From positions 1 through 50,264 of the forward strand of contig JABWBI010000003.1 in NCBI GenBank assembly GCA_013360565.1: a DNA stretch of 50,264 bases, written 5' to 3'. Positions 4,574-50,264 of the stretch are shown one piece after another; the stretch's first letter is position 1; every line of letters begins with the position of its first letter. The DNA is from Candidatus Sumerlaeia bacterium. GTDB lineage: Bacteria > Sumerlaeota > Sumerlaeia > JABWBI01. A model generated the notes under the pieces. That model had not been told where the DNA came from and ran no database searches. It was given only the letters and a program-made list of their open reading frames with translations. The translations under genes were made by a program, and so were the position numbers.

Positions 4574-7330
4574 ATGCGCGAACTCGACAAGCGATACGAC
4601 CCCAAGGCCACCGAGCAGCGGTGGTACAGCTTCTGGGAGTCACGTGGCCTGTTTCAGCCGCGGGGCGATGGCGAGCCCTTCGTCATTGTGATCCCGCCGC
4701 CGAATGTCACCGGCAAGCTCCACATGGGGCATGGGCTTGATGAGACGCTCCAGGATGTCCTCATCCGATGGCACCGGATGGGGGGGCGGCCGGCGCTCTG
4801 GCTGCCGGGGACCGATCACGCGGGCATCGCCACGCAGACGGTCGTCGAGAAGGCGCTCCACGCCGAGGGCCTGCGCCGGCATGATCTCGGACGCGAGAAA
4901 TTCGTCGAGCGCGTCTGGCAGTGGAAGGAGGAGAAGGGCGGCGCGATCCTTGAGCAGCTGCGCCGCCTGGGTTCGTCCGTCGACTGGTCGCGTCTGGCCT
5001 TCACGATGGACGAGCCGCGCTCGCGTGCTGTCCGGCGAGTCTTCAAGATGCTCTTCGATCAGGGGCTGATCTACCGGGGCAAGTACCTCGTCAACTGGGA
5101 TCCCGGGACGCAGACCGCGCTCTCCGATGACGAGGTCGAGTACGAGGAGGAGCAGGGCTCGCTCTGGCACATTCGCTATCCGTACGAGGACGGCAGCGGC
5201 CACGCCGTCGTCGCCACGACGCGCCCCGAGACGATGCTGGGTGACACCGCCGTCGCGGTTCATCCGAAGGACGAGCGCTATTCTCGCCTGCATGGCAAGC
5301 ACTGCGTGCTCCCCCTGATGAACCGTCTCATCCCGATCGTGCCGGACGACTTCGTGGACCGTGAGTTCGGGACGGGCATGGTGAAGGTCACGCCGGCGCA
5401 TGATCCGAACGACTTCGAGTGCGGCCGCCGCAACGGGCTCGAGATGATCAACGTGATGACCGTCGACGGGCGCATCAACGAGAACGGCGGGAAATACGCC
5501 GGGCTCGACATCCACGAGGCGCGCCGGCGTGTCGTCGCCGACCTCGAGGCGCTGGGCCTCATCGAGCGCGTGGAGCCGCACACCCACCGGATCGGCCGCT
5601 CCTATCGCTCGCGGGCGGTGATCGAGCCGCTGCTCTCCGACCAGTGGTTCGTCAAGATGCGCCCGCTGGCCGAGCGCGCCGCCGAGGCCGTCCGCGCGGG
5701 CCGAGTCCGCCTGACGCCGAGGACCTTCGAGGGAGTGTACTTCCACTGGATGGACAACGTCCGTGACTGGTGCATCTCGCGCCAGCTGTGGTGGGGCCAC
5801 CGCATTCCCATCTGGTATCACCGCGAGGATCCCGCGCGCATGATCTGCTGGGACGGTGAGGGTGACCCCACCGAGGTCCGGGCCGACCCCCGCGCCTGGC
5901 AGCAGGACACCGACGTTCTCGACACTTGGTTCTCCTCTTGGCTCTGGCCTCTCTCGACGCTCGGATGGCCCGAGGAGACCGAGGACCTGCGGCGCTTCTA
6001 CCCCACGAGCGTCCTCGTCACGGGTCACGACATTCTGTTCTTCTGGGTCGCGCGCATGATCATGGCCGGGCTCCTCTGCCGGGACGAGGTTCCCTTCCGT
6101 GACGTGTTTATTCACGGCCTGATCTTCGGCAAGTCATATTACCGGATGGTCGAGAACCGCGCGCACTACCTGCCGGAGCACGAGGTCCTGGAGATCGAGC
6201 GGAGCGAGAAGATCCCCAAGGGCGTCAGGTACAAGTGGGAGAAGATGTCGAAGTCCAAGGGCAACGTCATCGATCCCATCGAGATGATCGACGAGTTCGG
6301 CGCGGACGCTGTGCGCTTCACCCTCGTCGCCCTCTGCACACAGGCGCGGCAGCTGGACCTGGAGCGGAGCCGCTTCCTCGGCTATCGCAACTTCATCAAC
6401 AAGATCTGGAATGCCGCGCGGCTCGTCTTCATGAACGCCGCGGATCTCCCGGCGGAGGAGTTCGCACGGGGGCTCACCGGGCGCCCCGGCCTCGCCGTGG
6501 AGGACCGGTGGATTCTGTCATCGCTCCACCGGACGATTGCCGGCGCGGAGCGCTGCCTCGCCGAGTTCGACTTTGCGGGGCTCGCCAACACGGTCTACCA
6601 GTTCTTCTGGCGCCACTACTGCGACTGGTATCTCGAGTACGTCAAGCCGCGCCTCTACGGTGCCGACCCCGCCGCCAAGCGCACCGCTCAGACCGTCATG
6701 CTGCACGTCCTCGAGTCGTCGCTGCGGCTCATGCATCCCCTCATCCCCTTCGTCACCGAGGAGCTCTGGCAGGTGATCCGGGAGGAGATGAACCTGCCCG
6801 ATTCCGCTCTCTGCAGCTCGAGACGGCCTGCGTCCGAGGCGCTGTGGATCGACGACGCCGTCGAGCGGGAGATCGCTCTGGTGCAGGACGCCGTTGAGGC
6901 CGTGCGCAACATGCGGGGTGAGATCGGCCTTGAACCCAGTCAGCCGCTCGACATCCGCATCACGTCACCGAGTGCGGAGAAGGTGCGTCTCCTGCGTGAG
7001 TGCCAGCACCATTTCCATCAGCTGGTGAAGGTGGGCAGCCTCGAAATCGGCGAGGTCGCCGGTGAACACGGTCACGCCGCGACGTCCGTCCTGGCCGACG
7101 TCACGGTCCAGGTCCTTCTCAGCGACGAGGTTCTTCACCGCGAGATCGGACGTCTGGACAAGGCGATCGCGCAGACCTGGGCCAACGCCGAGCGCCTCGA
7201 GAAGAAGCTGTCGAACGCGGAGTTCTCCGCACGCGCGCCGGGGGAGGTGGTCGCCGCCGAGCGCGCCCGCCTCGCCACCGCGAAGGCCGAGCTCGAGGCG
7301 CTGGTCGAGAAGCGTTCACGCCTCGGCTGA
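4574..7330 (+). CDS. valS: Valyl-tRNA synthetase
   Basis: A 918-residue class Ia aminoacyl-tRNA synthetase that charges tRNA-Val. The HIGH-type motif is HMGH (residues 50-53), the KMSKS loop is residues 557-561, and the CP1 editing domain has TTRPETMLGDTAVAVHP, used to hydrolyse mischarged Thr-tRNA-Val. The C-terminus (about 850-918) is the coiled-coil tRNA arm typical of bacterial ValRS. The start is placed at MRELDKRYDP because alignment normally begins there and the extra upstream codons overlap the preceding gene. Length is normal. The gene ends 70 bases before the next gene. Confidence 0.97.
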   Translation: MRELDKRYDPKATEQRWYSFWESRGLFQPRGDGEPFVIVIPPPNVTGKLHMGHGLDETLQDVLIRWHRMGGRPALWLPGTDHAGIATQTVVEKALHAEGLRRHDLGREKFVERVWQWKEEKGGAILEQLRRLGSSVDWSRLAFTMDEPRSRAVRRVFKMLFDQGLIYRGKYLVNWDPGTQTALSDDEVEYEEEQGSLWHIRYPYEDGSGHAVVATTRPETMLGDTAVAVHPKDERYSRLHGKHCVLPLMNRLIPIVPDDFVDREFGTGMVKVTPAHDPNDFECGRRNGLEMINVMTVDGRINENGGKYAGLDIHEARRRVVADLEALGLIERVEPHTHRIGRSYRSRAVIEPLLSDQWFVKMRPLAERAAEAVRAGRVRLTPRTFEGVYFHWMDNVRDWCISRQLWWGHRIPIWYHREDPARMICWDGEGDPTEVRADPRAWQQDTDVLDTWFSSWLWPLSTLGWPEETEDLRRFYPTSVLVTGHDILFFWVARMIMAGLLCRDEVPFRDVFIHGLIFGKSYYRMVENRAHYLPEHEVLEIERSEKIPKGVRYKWEKMSKSKGNVIDPIEMIDEFGADAVRFTLVALCTQARQLDLERSRFLGYRNFINKIWNAARLVFMNAADLPAEEFARGLTGRPGLAVEDRWILSSLHRTIAGAERCLAEFDFAGLANTVYQFFWRHYCDWYLEYVKPRLYGADPAAKRTAQTVMLHVLESSLRLMHPLIPFVTEELWQVIREEMNLPDSALCSSRRPASEALWIDDAVEREIALVQDAVEAVRNMRGEIGLEPSQPLDIRITSPSAEKVRLLRECQHHFHQLVKVGSLEIGEVAGEHGHAATSVLADVTVQVLLSDEVLHREIGRLDKAIAQTWANAERLEKKLSNAEFSARAPGEVVAAERARLATAKAELEALVEKRSRLG

Positions 7331-43934: not shown

Positions 43935-44070
43935 GGACAGGAATCCCGCTGCCAGGCGTTCACGTTTGGCCGGCTCGTGCGTCATGGTTCACAGAGACCA
44001 GGAGGACCGGGGAGTGGGGGGGACCGCTCTCTCAGGGCGCCTGTCTCGACCACGTGCGGGAGGATCTGCC

Positions 44071-44940
44071 ATGTGTCCTGTTGAGAAGTCTTTGCTTGCC
44101 GCCCTTGGGGGCGCTCTGGCCCTCGGCGTCCCGCCGCAGGCCCCGGCCGTCATCCACGCCTTCGGCGCCATTTCGGTCAATGTGGCCGAGGAGACCCCTC
44201 CACCGGTCGGCGGAGCCTCGGGGAGTGGTGTCTTCAATGCCGTCTACGATGATGTTTCCAACCAGCTGACGTTCCATGTGAGCTGGACGGGGCTCACCAC
44301 AAATGCCACCGCGGGGCACCTGCATGGACCGGCCGGCCCTGGCGTCCCTGCCGGTGTTCAGGTCGATCTCAGCATCTCCGGCGGCACCTCGGGCTCTCAC
44401 ACCGCCACGGTATCGCTCTCCCCGGCGCAGGAGACGATGCTGCTCGGCGGCCTCATGTACATCAACATTCACACGGTCACGAACGGCGGGGGCGAGATCC
44501 GCGGCCAGATCATTGAGGACGCGGCGACCCATTCATTTGCCGACATCTCTCTCAACACGGCCGAAGAGGTGCCTGCACCCGTCGGCGCTCCGACGAGCAC
44601 GGGTTCGCTCGATGTGGCCTACAACTCCACGACCCAGCAGCTCACCTACGGCGTGTCCTGGTCGGGGATGAGCTCGGCGGTCAATGCGATGCACTTCCAC
44701 AGCCCCGCCGCGCCAGGATTCTCCTCGCCACCCGCCGTGGGGATCACGGGACATCCCACGGGGACCGCCGGCACGATGGCGGGCTCGGCCACCCTGACCC
44801 CCTCGCAGGGGACCGATCTCCTGAACGGGCTCATGTATTTCAACATCCACACCGTCAACAACGCGCCCGGCGAGATCCGGGGGCAGCTCGTGGGCGGCGT
44901 GACGGTCCCCGCTGAGCTCTCGGTCTTCCAGGCGAACTGA
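44071..44940 (+). CDS. Secreted protein with two CHRD domains
   Basis: 289 residues. Signal peptide about 1-27 (MCPVEKSLLAALGGALALGVPPQAPA). Two CHRD (chordin-like) repeats: the first with LTFHVSWTGLTTNATAGHLHGPA ... LMYINIHTVTNGGGEIRGQI, the second with LTYGVSWSGMSSAVNAMHFHSPA ... LMYFNIHTVNNAPGEIRGQL. CHRD modules are extracellular beta domains of unknown bacterial use. It ends TVPAELSVFQAN. ATG with GGGAGG upstream. A large hairpin follows 26 bases after the stop. Confidence 0.88.
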   Translation: MCPVEKSLLAALGGALALGVPPQAPAVIHAFGAISVNVAEETPPPVGGASGSGVFNAVYDDVSNQLTFHVSWTGLTTNATAGHLHGPAGPGVPAGVQVDLSISGGTSGSHTATVSLSPAQETMLLGGLMYINIHTVTNGGGEIRGQIIEDAATHSFADISLNTAEEVPAPVGAPTSTGSLDVAYNSTTQQLTYGVSWSGMSSAVNAMHFHSPAAPGFSSPPAVGITGHPTGTAGTMAGSATLTPSQGTDLLNGLMYFNIHTVNNAPGEIRGQLVGGVTVPAELSVFQAN

Positions 44941-45010: not shown

Positions 45011-45040
45011 TTGACGCCCCGCCTCCGATGCTGCTTGAGT
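45011..45040 (+). promoter_or_regulatory. Possible promoter of mtnA and the downstream genes
   Basis: TTGACG (45011-45016), an 18-base spacer and TTGAGT (45035-45040). Follows the hairpin at 44967 directly. Weak -10. Confidence 0.28.
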
Positions 45041-45078
45041 GCGGTCTCACTCTGACCGACCGGAGCCGGCGCGAGCAC

Positions 45079-46155
45079 ATGCCCATCGAGACCATCACCT
45101 GGACCGGCGAGAAGGTCCGCCTGATCGACCAGACCCTGCTCCCGGCGGAGGAGCGTCACCTCGAGCTCGGGTCGGTCGAGGAGATCTGGGAGGCGATCAA
45201 GATGCTGCGCGTGCGCGGCGCACCCGCCATCGGCGTCGCCGCGGCGCTTGGGCTGTGCGCCGGCATCCGAGGCTCGAGGGCCACCTCATGGGCGGAATTC
45301 GAGCCGGAGCTCAAACGCGCGGCCGGGTATCTGGCCTCGGCGCGGCCGACCGCCGTCAATCTCTCCTGGGCTCTCGAGCGCATGGTTCGCCTCGCCGAGA
45401 CGGTGAGAGACCAGCCTGTCGCTGCGATCAAAGAGCGTCTGCTCGCCGAGGCCACAGCGATGATCGAGGAGGACCACCGCATCTGCCGGGCGATGGGCGA
45501 GCACGGCGCGGCGCTGCTCACCGACGGCCAGGGGGTGCTGACTCACTGCAACACCGGCGGTCTTGCCACCGCGGGCCTTGGGACCGCGCTGAATGTGGTC
45601 TTCACGGCTCACCGGCAGGGCAAGCGGGTTCACGTGTTCGCCGACGAGACACGACCGCTGCTCCAGGGCGCGCGCCTCACGGCCTGGGAGTGCCTCCGCG
45701 AGGGGGTCCCATGCACGCTCATCTGCGACTCGATGGCCGCAGTCGTGATGCGCCAGGGCAAGGTGAAGAGCGTGCTCGTGGGAGCTGATCGCATCGCGGC
45801 CAATGGCGACACCGCGAACAAGATCGGGACCTACATGCTCGCTGTCCTGGCCAAGGAACACGGCATCGGCTTCTACGTCGTCGCCCCGCTCTCGACGATC
45901 GACCGGGCCATTGCCTCCGGCGACGAGATCCCGATCGAGGAGCGCGGCGCGGAGGAGATCATCCGGGGCTTCGGCCGGCAGACCGCACCGAGCGGTGTGC
46001 AGGTCTTCAATCCGGCCTTCGATGTGACGCCCCACCGTCTCATCGCCGGCATTGTCACCGAGCGGGGAGTCGCCGGGCCCCCGTACACGGAGAGCCTGCG
46101 CGCGATGTTCGAGGAGAGTGCCATGCGACCGCACCGGCCAGTCAAGCGAGGCTGA
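45079..46155 (+). CDS. mtnA: S-methyl-5-thioribose-1-phosphate isomerase
   Basis: 358 residues. eIF-2B-alpha-like fold: MLRVRGAPAIGVAAALGL, LTHCNTGGLATAGLGTAL (catalytic Cys), VFADETRPLLQGARLTAWE and VGADRIAANGDTANKIGTY (catalytic Asp). Isomerises MTR-1-P to MTRu-1-P in methionine salvage. The start at 45079 (MPIETITW) is the usual beginning; the 17 codons upstream are not conserved and the SD is weak. No other salvage gene (mtnK, mtnB, mtnD) lies in the window. Confidence 0.94.
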   Translation: MPIETITWTGEKVRLIDQTLLPAEERHLELGSVEEIWEAIKMLRVRGAPAIGVAAALGLCAGIRGSRATSWAEFEPELKRAAGYLASARPTAVNLSWALERMVRLAETVRDQPVAAIKERLLAEATAMIEEDHRICRAMGEHGAALLTDGQGVLTHCNTGGLATAGLGTALNVVFTAHRQGKRVHVFADETRPLLQGARLTAWECLREGVPCTLICDSMAAVVMRQGKVKSVLVGADRIAANGDTANKIGTYMLAVLAKEHGIGFYVVAPLSTIDRAIASGDEIPIEERGAEEIIRGFGRQTAPSGVQVFNPAFDVTPHRLIAGIVTERGVAGPPYTESLRAMFEESAMRPHRPVKRG

Positions 46156-46445: not shown

Positions 46446-47252
46446 ATGCCGCAGTTCACTCAGGAGCAGATGGAGCGCTACTCGCGCCACATCCTGATCC
46501 CCGGCTTCGGCGGAGTGGGGCAGCAGCGTCTGCTGGACGCGAAGGTCCTTGTGCTGGGGGCCGGAGGCCTCGGCTCGCCCGCGCTGCTGTACCTCGCCGC
46601 GGCCGGGATCGGAACGATCGGCATCGTCGACGGTGACTGCGTTGACCTCTCGAATCTCCAGCGGCAGATCATCCACAGGACGGCGGACATCGGCCGGCCG
46701 AAAGCCCTCTCGGCGCAGGAGACGCTCACCGCGCTGAACCCCGGCGTCCGGATCATCGTCCACTCCGAGCGGATGACCGGAGAGAATGCCGCCGCGCTGA
46801 TCGCGCCGTACGATGCCGTCGTCGACGGCACTGACAACTTCCCGACTCGCTTCCTCGCCAATGATGCGTGCTTCTTTGCCCGCCGGCCGCTGTTCACCGC
46901 GGCCGTCTTCCGCTTCGAGGGCCAGCTGACATCCTTCCTGATGCAGGGTTCAGGGCCCTGCTATCGCTGCCTCTTCCCCGAGCCGCCTCCCCCGGGTCTG
47001 ATTCCCACGTGTCAGGAGGCGGGAATTCTCGGCTCGGTCACCGGCGTCCTCGGAACGCTCCTCGCCACCGAGGTCATCAAGCACTTCGCTCAGACCGGGG
47101 AGGGCTTGGAGGGGACGCTGCTGCTCTGCGACCTGCTGACGGCCACCTTCCGCCGGGTGCGCTTCAAGCGCAATCCGGCCTGCCCCCTGTGCGGGGATGC
47201 GCCGGCGATCACCCGAGTCACCGGGCATTCCCCGGTGTGTGGCACGAGATGA
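46446..47252 (+). CDS. ThiF/MoeB/HesA-type E1-like adenylyltransferase
   Basis: 268 residues, complete E1-like domain: RYSRHILIPGFG start, GAGGLGSP nucleotide loop (38-45), DGDCVDLSNLQRQIIH (R73 region), GTDNFPTR (D130), a catalytic Cys in PTCQEAG (C189) and zinc cysteines C172/C175 and C246/C249. Activates the C-terminal glycine of a ThiS- or MoaD-like carrier with ATP. No rhodanese domain. No Gly-Gly carrier lies here; the TusA-like protein ends RQV and cannot be adenylated in the classical way. Its true partner is elsewhere or unusual. Confidence 0.9.
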   Translation: MPQFTQEQMERYSRHILIPGFGGVGQQRLLDAKVLVLGAGGLGSPALLYLAAAGIGTIGIVDGDCVDLSNLQRQIIHRTADIGRPKALSAQETLTALNPGVRIIVHSERMTGENAAALIAPYDAVVDGTDNFPTRFLANDACFFARRPLFTAAVFRFEGQLTSFLMQGSGPCYRCLFPEPPPPGLIPTCQEAGILGSVTGVLGTLLATEVIKHFAQTGEGLEGTLLLCDLLTATFRRVRFKRNPACPLCGDAPAITRVTGHSPVCGTR

Positions 47253-47327: not shown

Positions 47328-48497
47328 ATGACCTCCGGGCACTCGCTCGGCGAAGTCGCCTTCCATCTCCTCTGCCACGGAGCGGCCCTCGATGCCCAGG
47401 ACGCGTGGATCGAGGGAGCCGTGCAGCGGTGGGGGCCGGGCGAGCGGCTTCTGGAGCTCGAGCTCAATCCGCACTGGCATCTCCAAGTGGCGGTGGCGAC
47501 CGGCCGCGCCGAGGCCGTGAAGATGCGTGTGCGGGAGGAGTCGGTCGCGATCGACTATGCGGGGGAGACGTTCCCCGCGCGCATCGAATGCCGGCCAGAG
47601 TTCCTCGACCAGACGGCCCCCTCCGGGGTCCCTCGTTCGGCTCTCGCCCGGACGTTCTACAACTACCTGATGTTTCATCCGCTCTCACTTCATGCCGAGG
47701 GTGCCGAGCGCCGGGTGATGATCACACCGCCGGGCGCGGAGCCCATCCCCCTGGAGTTTGACGATGTCCTCGATGTCACCGGGGCGGCTCTGCGGGCGGA
47801 GCGGATCGACGGCGTCTCGCTCCGGTGGGCCTTGCGCGTGACGCCCGGGGAGGTGGATGTCGCTCTCGGACCGCTGCTCCGGGCCATCCGCCGGAACTTC
47901 GACGTCGTCATCGCCGCCGAGTGCCCGCCTCCGCGCGACGCGGGGGCGCTGGATCTCCTCTACGGCGAAGGGGCCGACGCGATCAGTCTGCCGATCCTCG
48001 GCATGACGGCCGACGCTCCCCGGGGCGCCACGCTCGCCGAGGCCCTGCACGCCCTGCAGCGGGCGGTGGTCGTCTTCCCGCGGGGCACCGTGCTCGCGCC
48101 GCTGCTCCTCGGGTGCGAGTCGCCGGCCGCCACGCGTGAGACGGTCTCGCGTCTCGCCTCGATGGGGGCCTGCGCGGCACTGGACACGCGCCTCCTCGGC
48201 GAGCATTGGGAGAAGCATCGGCGGGTGTGGACCTCGGCCGAGATCGCGCATCTCTGGCAGCATCTCGAGGAGGAGATCGCCCGTGCGCGTCTGGCGCGGC
48301 CGTGGACGCCGCACCCCATGACCGAGTCCCTGGCCATCCCCGCGTGGTCGTTTGACCCGGCGGCTCCCTGCGAGCCTCTGCGCGGCGGCTTTTGGCAGTC
48401 GCGGCCCGGCCAGATGGTCGTGAAGAATCTCATCCGTCTGCGCCGCCGCCTGCGGGTTCGCCGGGTGGACCAGAGCCTGGAGTCGTCGGAGCTCTGA
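47328..48497 (+). CDS. Unknown protein, radical-SAM-like barrel without FeS cysteines (inference)
   Basis: 389 residues, no signal peptide, no membrane helix. Residues 92-101 (FLDQTAPSGVP) resemble the FYDxTxxDGVP lead-in of some radical SAM/biotin-synthase-like proteins (the MSMEG_0568 type, from memory). The C-terminal half has ADAISLPILG, FPRGTVLAPLLLGCESPAATRETVSRLASMGA, a strand-helix pattern seen in barrel ends of that superfamily. The CxxxCxxC cluster motif expected near residues 105-140 is absent; the six cysteines (16, 88, 199, 263, 282 and about 356) are scattered. Function unknown. It is 1 base ahead of the SLC13-like gene and in the same unit as the tusA/thiF-like pair. Confidence 0.7.
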   Translation: MTSGHSLGEVAFHLLCHGAALDAQDAWIEGAVQRWGPGERLLELELNPHWHLQVAVATGRAEAVKMRVREESVAIDYAGETFPARIECRPEFLDQTAPSGVPRSALARTFYNYLMFHPLSLHAEGAERRVMITPPGAEPIPLEFDDVLDVTGAALRAERIDGVSLRWALRVTPGEVDVALGPLLRAIRRNFDVVIAAECPPPRDAGALDLLYGEGADAISLPILGMTADAPRGATLAEALHALQRAVVVFPRGTVLAPLLLGCESPAATRETVSRLASMGACAALDTRLLGEHWEKHRRVWTSAEIAHLWQHLEEEIARARLARPWTPHPMTESLAIPAWSFDPAAPCEPLRGGFWQSRPGQMVVKNLIRLRRRLRVRRVDQSLESSEL

Positions 48498-48498
48498 C

Positions 48499-49968
48499 AT
48501 GACCTCCCCCCCCGCGTCTCCTCGCCTCGTGATCGACACGCGTCCGCTGTGGCGTGTGCTCTTCAGCCGCACATCGCATTGGCTTGCGATGCTCCTCGCG
48601 CTGGCCGTCTTCGCTTCGATTCTCGCGGCCCCGCTCCAGGGCATCACGCCGCCGGCCCAGCGGACGCTCGCGATCTTCGCGCTGTGCGCCATGTGCTGGG
48701 CCACGCAGGCCATCCCGCTCAGCGCAACGGGCCTCCTCGTGCTGGCGCTCCTGCCGATCTGCGGGGTCATGTCGCCCGAGGAGACGTTCTCGCTCTTCGG
48801 GAGCCGGGCGGTCTTCTTCATCCTGGGCGCCTTCATCATCGCCGCCGCGGTGATGCAGTCGGGCCTCTCGAGCCGGTTCGCGATGATCATCCTCAGCCGG
48901 TTCGGCCGCACTCCCACCGGCCTCATGCTGAGCATCACGGTGCTGGCTGCGGCGCTCTCCCATCTGATGCCCGAGCACGCGGTCGCCGCGATGCTCTTGC
49001 CGATCGTCATCGAGATCTCGCGCGCGCTCCGGCTCCGGCCCGGCGCGAGCCGGATGGGATCGGGGATGTTCCTCGGGCTCGCCTGGGGGGCGATCATCGG
49101 CGGCATCGCCACGTTCCTCGGCGGCGCGCGCAATGTCCTCGCCGTCGAGATCCTCCAGCGCACGACCGGCCAGTCGATCGGGTTTCTCGAGTTCTGGCGC
49201 GCCTCGTTCCCCGTCGTGCTGCTGATGCTCGGGGCCCTCATCGGGATCCTGCTCACGATGTTCCGGCCGGAGATCGTGTCGACCGGGCCTGCTCAGGAGG
49301 TGCTCCGCGCGCGCCTGCGTCAGATGGGGCGGATGTCGCTCGAGGAGCGGATGACAGGGGTGGTGCTGGCCGTGACGGTCATCGGCTGGGTGGTGAGCGA
49401 GCACGTCCACCTCGACATCGCGGTCGTGGCGCTCGCGGGAGCTGTGTCGCTCTTCGCCCTCCGCGTCATCTCCTGGCAGGACGTCGAGCGCCACGTGAAC
49501 TGGGGCATCATTCTCATGTACGGAGGGGCCATCGCGCTCGGTCAGGCGATGGACTCCGAGCACACCGGGGCGGCCGAGTGGCTCGCCCGCTCGGTCCTCA
49601 GTGACTCCCTCTTCGCCCACTCGATTCTCACGGTGATCACGCTCGCGGCCATGGCGCTGCTCCTCACCGAGGGGCTCAGCAACGCGGCCGTGGTGGCGAT
49701 GATCATGCCGATCGCGCTCGATGTCGCCCTGCGGCTGGACGTCGATCCCGCGCTGATGGTCTACGCGGTGGCGCTCCCCGCTGGTCTCGCCTTCACGCTC
49801 CCCATCGCCTCTCCGCCCAACGCGCTCGTCCACTCGACGGGCCATGTGCGCATGCGCCACTTCCTCACCGCGGGGCCGCTCATCAATGTCATCTCGCTGG
49901 TGGCCGTCACGCTGGTGGCCATCTTCCACTGGGGCTCGATCCTGGGCCTCTTCGAGGCAACGCCATGA
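48499..49968 (+). CDS. SLC13/DASS-type anion:sodium symporter-like protein
   Basis: 489 residues, about 11-12 helices. Core features: ATQAIPLSATGLLVLALLPICGVMSPEETFSLFGSRAVFFILGAFIIA, the half-repeat hairpin and SEGLSNAAVVAMIMPIAL near residue 395. DASS carriers move sulfate, dicarboxylates or citrate with sodium. The second SNT-type motif reads SNA; the first position reads PEH (LSHLMPEHAVAAMLLPI), so a binding residue set is changed. Coupled by a 4-base overlap to the Usp-like gene and 1 base after the unknown gene. Substrate open; sulfur anion is attractive given the neighbours. Confidence 0.8.
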   Translation: MTSPPASPRLVIDTRPLWRVLFSRTSHWLAMLLALAVFASILAAPLQGITPPAQRTLAIFALCAMCWATQAIPLSATGLLVLALLPICGVMSPEETFSLFGSRAVFFILGAFIIAAAVMQSGLSSRFAMIILSRFGRTPTGLMLSITVLAAALSHLMPEHAVAAMLLPIVIEISRALRLRPGASRMGSGMFLGLAWGAIIGGIATFLGGARNVLAVEILQRTTGQSIGFLEFWRASFPVVLLMLGALIGILLTMFRPEIVSTGPAQEVLRARLRQMGRMSLEERMTGVVLAVTVIGWVVSEHVHLDIAVVALAGAVSLFALRVISWQDVERHVNWGIILMYGGAIALGQAMDSEHTGAAEWLARSVLSDSLFAHSILTVITLAAMALLLTEGLSNAAVVAMIMPIALDVALRLDVDPALMVYAVALPAGLAFTLPIASPPNALVHSTGHVRMRHFLTAGPLINVISLVAVTLVAIFHWGSILGLFEATP

Positions 49969-50264
49969 GACCTGTCCTGCTTCTGCTCTCGACAACCGAT
50001 CTTCCTCACTCTGCGGCGGAGAGGGCCCTCGACCTCTGCACCGGGATGGGGGTCCCCCTCATCGCAGCGCACATCCACGACGCCCGCGCCGCCGAGCGAT
50101 CCGAGCGGCGGGCGCTCGACGCCGGGTTCTTGGGCGAAGGGGTCGGGGAGATCATCCACCAGGCCATTGTCGAAGATGAGCAGCTGCGTGTGGACGAGGT
50201 GCTTCAGGCCGTCAGCGCCGCCGCCGCGTCGCGTGGCGTCGCCTGCACGGTGAAGCGGGCCGAG
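49965..50264 (+). CDS. Universal-stress-protein-like (UspA), N-terminal part, runs off window
   Basis: 100 codons visible. MRPVLLLLSTTDLPHSAAERALDLCTGMG resembles the first strand-helix of UspA-like nucleotide-binding domains, followed by a helix-rich insertion and VDEVLQAVSAAAASRGV. The open frame continues past the end of the window. The ATG overlaps the SLC13 stop (ATGA). Usp proteins often sit beside transporters and may sense ATP or regulate them. Moderate certainty because the C-terminal binding loop is outside the window. Confidence 0.6.
   Translation, partial: MRPVLLLLSTTDLPHSAAERALDLCTGMGVPLIAAHIHDARAAERSERRALDAGFLGEGVGEIIHQAIVEDEQLRVDEVLQAVSAAAASRGVACTVKRAE

Follow-up and report, generated by a model that had tools for sequence, protein, structure and literature searches.

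A radical SAM-related protein without cluster motif, encoded beside DASS transporters in sulfur operons and conserved in Nitrospinota

The locus and its protein

The window (the whole stretch of DNA analyzed, 50,264 nucleotides of contig JABWBI010000003.1 from a Candidatus Sumerlaeia bacterium) ends in a run of forward-strand genes in which the gene for a protein here called X (P0001 in the window) lies between those for an E1-type adenylyltransferase and a DASS/SLC13 anion symporter (Table 1). The MtnA/IF-2B family gene, which we take to encode a methylthioribose-1-phosphate isomerase, is also found upstream in G001 (locus L032), a genome from the family to which that of the window also belongs. 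Further upstream, a protein encoded at 43966-44940 contains two CHRD-domain stretches. The sulfur carrier preceding the E1 gene is TusA-like in the window, and a MoaD match lies near position 9942 of L032 in G001. The last gene of the run is similar in tblastn searches to genes located 3′ of DASS in L187 (where Pfam identifies Usp), L032, and L189, and Usp matches after DASS were also seen in G001, G285, and G402.

Table 1. Genes and protein features at the X locus of the window
Feature	Position	Strand	Basis
MtnA/IF-2B family gene	45028..46155	+	Pfam PF01008, 302.5 bits
TusA-like sulfur-carrier gene, 74 aa	46218..46442	+	PF01206, 59.9 bits (cutoff 28.6)
MoeB/ThiF-type E1 adenylyltransferase	46446..47252	+	PF00899, 267.3 bits; NF004281 MoeB, 294.8 bits (cutoff 266)
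Protein X (P0001), cluster-less radical-SAM-like barrel	47328..48497	+	Open from ATG to stop, 389 aa
Residues 118-134 of P0001, PLSLHAEGAERRVMITP, site of the cousins' cluster loop	47679..47729	+	Alignments, secondary structure
Residues 219-238 of P0001, site of the cousins' Glu and PG[KR] loop	47982..48041	+	Shortened, without the motif
Residues 240-284 of P0001, barrel-end stretch, still variant_rSAM-like	48045..48179	+	NCBIfam match
C-terminal signature LRRRLRV...SLESSEL, residues 371-389 of P0001	48438..48494	+	LRRxLRV-like pattern
DASS/SLC13 anion symporter	48499..49968	+	TIGR00785, 264.2 bits (cutoff 198.6); starts 1 nt past the X stop
Universal stress protein (Usp)-like gene, runs off the contig	49965..50264	+	Overlaps the DASS stop codon

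The six cysteines of P0001 (positions 16, 88, 199, 263, 282, and 348) form no CxxxCxxC, as a first, sequence-only reading of this DNA had stated. That reading had also pointed to two stretches as traces of a radical SAM barrel. The motif FxDxTxxSGVP is present as FLDQTAPSGVP and spans residues 92 to 102 rather than 92 to 101. Although it stands before barrel strand 1 and does not belong to the classical radical SAM motifs, it aligns with a motif in other, cysteine-bearing proteins of the variant_rSAM family, hereafter the cousins (e.g., RPAFYAQRTSSGKLM and RPRFFGETTSSGIPM), which identifies it as a true family motif. The second stretch, the barrel-end segment FPRGTVLAPLLL...SPAATRETVSRLASMGA, is likewise present and starts at residue 250. 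Residues 118 to 134, where the cousins carry their cluster loop, are predicted to form a beta-hairpin free of cysteines.

Descent from radical SAM enzymes and loss of the cluster motif

Radical SAM proteins are mostly recognized by their cysteine motif, so relatives lacking it escape annotation. P0001 is an example, with nothing significant in a Pfam search or in a sequence search of the PDB; its weak matches to DUF4248, cytochrome c, and mercuric reductase were taken as chance. Against NCBIfam, P0001 matched NF045502 (variant_rSAM) with an E-value of 8e-5 (21.8 bits, residues 240 to 284) and TIGR04043 (MSMEG_0568 radical SAM) with an E-value of 3.7e-4 (19.6 bits, residues 182 to 280). The former match covers the barrel-end segment, at which a radical SAM likeness had been suspected. 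Both scores are far below the curated cutoffs (125 bits for NF045502 and 303.7 bits for TIGR04043), and since it falls below every family cutoff, P0001 is a relative rather than a member. NF045502 was matched by 20 of 20 X family members (best E-value, 8.9e-14) and TIGR04043 by 19 of the 20. The X protein of G203 scores 106.6 bits against NF045502 (E-value, 1.3e-30; residues 4 to 297), below the cutoff of 125, and the cysteine-bearing X protein of G285 scores 202 bits, above it.

An AlphaFold2 model of P0001, built on 44 relatives, reached a pLDDT of 80.3 and a pTM of 0.81. In line with the scaffold proposed from the sequence, its closest PDB structure is human lipoyl synthase, LIAS (Foldseek E-value, 1.2e-6; VIA-align Z, 14.0; rmsd, 3.8; 237 aligned residues). 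Rows 1 to 40 of the VIA-align results are all radical SAM proteins, in which HydG, biotin synthase, HydE, and others follow the lipoyl synthases, and the first other chain has a Z of 10.0. A separate model of the Nitrospina X protein (pLDDT, 85.0; pTM, 0.86) also has LIAS on top by Z (15.0; rmsd, 4.1; 230 aligned residues); by Foldseek E-value, dihydropteroate synthases rank ahead of LIAS. The profile matches in all 20 members and the fold matches establish that the resemblance is real and rule out chance, which the sequence-only reading had kept among its options. The X family almost certainly descends from radical SAM enzymes of the "variant" type represented by NF045502.

The variant_rSAM family is common, scoring above its cutoff in 38 of 386 genomes. 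For the tree and the motif counts, 21 X proteins, 12 of them from Nitrospinota, were compared with 25 cousins (L141, L132 to L135, and L138, which is the same gene as the G285 X, were left out of this set). The cluster motif C-x6-12-C-x-[FY]-C after strand 1 is present in all 25 cousins, in 2 of the 21 X proteins, and not in P0001. The same counts hold for PG[KR] in the loop after strand 4, which together with a Glu residue we take to contact SAM in this superfamily. Cluster motif and SAM-contact loop are both lost in 18 of the 21 X proteins, including that of the window. A larger alignment (A6) comprises 44 X proteins, 40 from Nitrospinota; among the proteins left out of it are L024, with one internal stop, a truncated copy from G155, and a C-terminal fragment from G118. 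Neither CxxxCxxC nor C-x4-20-CxxC was found in any of the 44. Radical SAM enzymes contact SAM through a Gly pair after strand 2, a Glu or Asn at the ribose, and a barrel-end GxIxGxxE; the strand-2 and Glu/PG[KR] motifs are absent from P0001, and only the barrel-end LLLGCES remains.

The X family retains intermediates of this loss. The G285 protein keeps three cysteines (CEFFNMNIECRYC) and the PG[KR] loop, and the G418 protein keeps three cysteines (CGFFGERLACAFC) and the loop, with Asp replacing Glu. Only the first and third cysteines persist in the G203 protein (PLSCCPSLGWRTYC), whose loop is altered to HPER, and one cysteine is left at the cluster-loop site of the G402 protein. The site reads PLSLHAEGAERR in the window and PLHVEAEGAERR in G001, without cluster cysteines, and in Nitrospinota the cluster loop is deleted. 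The cysteines were thus lost stepwise, with three, two, one, and none all seen among X proteins, and there is little doubt that the cluster and the usual SAM site are gone from the window's lineage. Five cysteine columns of A6 (65, 156, 161, 222, and 402) are conserved in Nitrospinota X. The DGYC cysteine (e.g., residue 115 of L035) is present by column in 42 of the 44 proteins and not in the two from Sumerlaeota; its identification as the third cluster cysteine was dropped when better alignments and the Nitrospina model placed it where barrel strand 1 begins.

Distribution and genomic setting

X was found in 2 of 40 Sumerlaeota genomes (the G001 protein shares 50% identity with P0001), in 2 of the 3 genomes of the small phylum of G067, and in about 56 of 77 Nitrospinota genomes, where 57 were matched and the match in G100 is a cysteine-bearing cousin. 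A search with a wider profile matched 29 of 386 genomes, 12 of which were taken as X and 17 as cousins, and added the X proteins of G203, G285, G418, G402, and G421. No relative turned up in a scan of viral contigs. Purifying selection on X is strong in Nitrospinota, with dN/dS of 0.036 to 0.141 in 21 pairs of about 80% identity or more. Across the 44 X proteins, the barrel residues G18, F92, P182, Y212, G215, D217, L243, F250, G253, L259, W326, R372, and R373 are invariant. The LRRxLRV-like C-terminal arm is present in all 21 X proteins, with or without cysteines, and in 1 of the 25 cousins; the G421 protein (263 residues) is missing the N-terminal domain and has kept the arm. In the tree, the 18 cluster-less X proteins other than that of G203 form one group (84/94) and those of G203, G285, and G418 form another (93/84). 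The branch parting X from the cousins is weak (64/54), and the inner order of the X tree is unsure because of long branches.

Outside Nitrospinota, a DASS gene lies directly downstream of X at 9 of 9 loci (the window's included, and with two pairs of near relatives, window/G001 and G067/G175) and at none of the 37 cousin loci compared (29 have flanks of at most 1.5 kb, some of them truncated where a contig ends; the other 8 are wider, and 6 of these repeat genes already among the 29). Cysteine-bearing homologs adjoining SLC13-like genes, whose existence the sequence-only reading had left as a question, are found in G285 and G418. X and DASS are separated by +1 nt in the window, +3 in G001, +2 in G285, 0 in G421, +9 in G402, and +194 in G203, and they overlap by 4 nt in G418, 8 nt in G067, and 14 nt in G175. 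These junctions lie within -14 to +9 nt at 8 of the 9 loci, and the two genes are probably translationally coupled.

Sulfate-assimilation or sulfur-carrier genes are present in addition to DASS at 8 of the 9 loci; at the ninth, in G402, where X is 1.3 kb from the contig end, only Usp was found. The longest of the gene orders given here is that of G285: ThrC, sulfite reductase, ThiS/MoaD, CysM, JAMM protease, E1, X, DASS, and Usp, followed by CysC, a further protein, CysH, and Sat. G418 has ThrC, CysM, JAMM, MoaD, E1, a DsrE-like and a second small protein, X, DASS, CysH, and a DsrE-like protein. X and DASS are preceded by an Rrf2 regulator, sulfite reductase, and APS reductase in G203 and by ThrC and MoaD in G067 and G175, and in G421 they stand between CysM-like and sulfite/nitrite reductase-like genes on one side and CysH, CysD, and CysN on the other. 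The window shares the order E1-X-DASS-Usp with G285, with TusA preceding E1. The synteny shows X to be a regular component of operons for sulfate assimilation and sulfur-carrier cysteine synthesis, and we are confident that it sits in a sulfur-assimilation context; judging from this context, the window's DASS would carry sulfate.

DASS transporters usually carry an SNT-type motif at the first motif site. The X-linked DASS proteins (48499-49968 of the window, L032, L033, L187 to L190, and L155) have in common an LGGAR stretch at that site and mostly SNAA or SNSA as the second SNT-type motif, and may form a sulfate-type subgroup. Among the cousins, the cysteine-bearing variant_rSAM gene at L124 (G297) has no DASS and a CysM-like match directly downstream, and L154 (G379) holds two tandem variant_rSAM genes at 4773-7296, each with an added C-terminal CLGC.GC.

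In Nitrospinota, X lies between a gene that we take to encode an Mpl-type ligase and a gene for a canonical radical SAM protein, c4, which adjoins X in 13 of 16 loci examined. A DASS gene beside X was sought in 16 Nitrospinota loci and found in none. The c4 protein is about 290 to 310 aa long and scores 63.1 bits against Pfam Radical_SAM. It represents an unnamed canonical radical SAM family with extra C-terminal cysteines (L088/L119, G000:C90:4453-5298; 13 of L035 to L050), and its best NCBIfam match, to the Rv1681 family (4.9e-26), is below the cutoff. Full-length c4 was found in 2 of 40 Sumerlaeota genomes (E-values, 3.8e-79 and 1.8e-75; next best, 3.5e-14), the same two that encode X, on a different contig from X. 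X occurs without c4 in G107, and in G067 and G175 the c4 matches are partial. Passages of the respective papers report SulP or CysZ as the sulfate transporters of Nitrospinota (PMC10839748) and the presence of all sulfate-assimilation genes in the N. gracilis genome (PMC3578206). Since X is nearly universal in Nitrospinota, has no DASS beside it there, and coexists with the reported SulP or CysZ, it is not simply a DASS subunit.

Possible function, alternatives, and known systems

Without cluster ligands and the usual SAM loop, P0001 should, on anatomical grounds, not make radicals from SAM, and a nonradical function of X is very likely. Because P0001 has the same operon place and the same C-terminal arm as the cysteine-bearing X proteins, it probably serves the same pathway. 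That a radical SAM enzyme of the sulfate-assimilation operon was converted into a cluster-free, SAM-free protein is well supported, and its present job would be, we infer, that of an accessory or regulatory protein. Our preferred reading as a whole, to which we assign a probability of roughly 0.45, is that X is a nonradical accessory protein tying sulfate uptake or use to the need for reduced sulfur. In the window's lineage the cluster cysteines were lost, a predicted cysteine-free hairpin took the place of the cluster loop, and the Glu and PG[KR] loop disappeared as well, which would have ended the usual SAM cleavage. The old barrel may now hold a ligand or partner of the sulfur pathway, and the conserved C-terminal arm may contact an operon partner, either the importer (DASS) or MoeB/ThiF together with the sulfur carrier, with the outcome that sulfate uptake or use would follow the cell's need for reduced sulfur. 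That X regulates uptake or sulfur transfer, or serves them as an adaptor, is a tentative proposal. More doubtful is the specific version in which X is a metabolite sensor and a cytosolic gate or adaptor, coupling the cell's sulfur state to sulfate import through DASS or to thiolation of the sulfur carrier, with the barrel re-used in Nitrospinota together with a second, canonical radical SAM protein. A SAM-sensor role was given less weight, as proteins that lost the cluster lost the SAM loop too, and so was a pure DASS-subunit role, as Nitrospinota have X without DASS beside it.

The sequence-only reading had considered a degenerate partner or a new enzyme on the radical SAM scaffold besides chance; chance has fallen away, and a partner or regulator and a nonradical enzyme are both kept. 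The main rival to the accessory protein is a new nonradical enzyme with the old barrel and a rebuilt mouth, for which a sulfur-carrier thiocarboxylate, activated serine or homoserine, or a sulfonate may be proposed as substrates. Strong purifying selection and the invariant barrel residues in 44 proteins would suit an enzyme, and so would the dihydropteroate synthase-type barrels that Foldseek finds for the Nitrospina model and the Pfam Pterin_bind matches touching 2 of 20 members (best E-value, 0.17). However, none of the Pterin_bind scores reaches significance, there is no evident new catalytic motif common to all X proteins, and those of the window, G067, and Nitrospinota have strongly divergent ligand loops; we consider this enzyme rather unlikely. 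A noncatalytic partnership with c4, in which the two proteins form a heterodimer, is attractive for Nitrospinota, where the genes mostly adjoin, and the co-occurrence of full-length c4 and X in the same two Sumerlaeota genomes argues in the same direction. Yet the Sumerlaeota c4 is on another contig, X occurs without c4 in G107 and with partial matches in G067 and G175, and the two Sumerlaeota belong to one family, so their co-occurrence perhaps reflects one event; as an account of X in general the heterodimer is improbable.

It is far less probable that X has remained a radical SAM enzyme, with a cluster that sits on other cysteines or is shared between subunits. Several cysteines are conserved in Nitrospinota members, but the best kept of them, DGYC, starts barrel strand 1 instead of following it, the two Sumerlaeota proteins have no cysteine in those columns, and the SAM loop was lost together with the cluster. 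A decaying gene or a chance resemblance, for which the long branches of the cysteine-less proteins might speak, is rejected in view of the open frames, the low dN/dS, the presence in most Nitrospinota, the fixed synteny, and the profile and fold matches.

A cysteine-less branch of the superfamily is conserved in most Nitrospinota, marine nitrite oxidizers among them, and X recurs in the sulfate-assimilation operons of several other lineages, in which cysteine-bearing, half-lost, and cysteine-less versions share one operon position. The family offers a testable case in which members of an enzyme superfamily have given up the cofactor without leaving the pathway they served, and it suggests that sulfate uptake or the synthesis of cysteine via sulfur carriers involves a protein so far unrecognized. 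Literature searches on radical SAM pseudoenzymes, sulfur-carrier operons, and sulfur metabolism in Nitrospina and Sumerlaeota returned no paper recognized as treating the X family. The term "radical SAM" does not occur in the main text of PMC3578206, PMC10839748, and PMC8092238. A link to the isethionate radical SAM protein IsrB was also considered, but passages on IsrB describe it as similar to BciD and contain nothing on the X family (PMC11423573). X is a pseudo-radical-SAM family in which intermediates of the loss survive, and the papers searched place no such family in this pathway.

Several known systems resemble X in part. The operons of G285 and G418, with ThiS/MoaD, a CysM-type synthase, a JAMM protease, and an E1, presumably resemble the CysO-CysM-Mec+ and HcyS/HcyF/HcyD sulfur-carrier pathways; to our knowledge, neither pathway has been described as including X or DASS. 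TIGR04347 (pseudo-SAM/SPASM, pseudo_SAM_Halo) is, by its NCBIfam name, also a radical-SAM-derived "pseudo" family, and it matched c4, the neighbor of X, and not X itself, so it represents another branch of the superfamily. Lipoyl synthase (LipA/LIAS), which carries a second, auxiliary cysteine motif besides CxxxCxxC, is the closest solved fold (Z, 14.0 to 15.0), but identity in the structural alignments is about 12 to 15%, and P0001 has neither the radical SAM cysteines nor the second cysteine cluster. The variant_rSAM and MSMEG_0568 families (NF045502 and TIGR04043) share with X the homologous barrel, an N-terminal RPxF..T.SG.P, and a GLEP-type barrel-end segment. They differ from P0001 in the cluster motif and PG[KR] loop, which every cousin in the comparison set carries and P0001 lacks, and whereas none of the NF045502 cousin loci adjoins DASS, X does so at every locus outside Nitrospinota.
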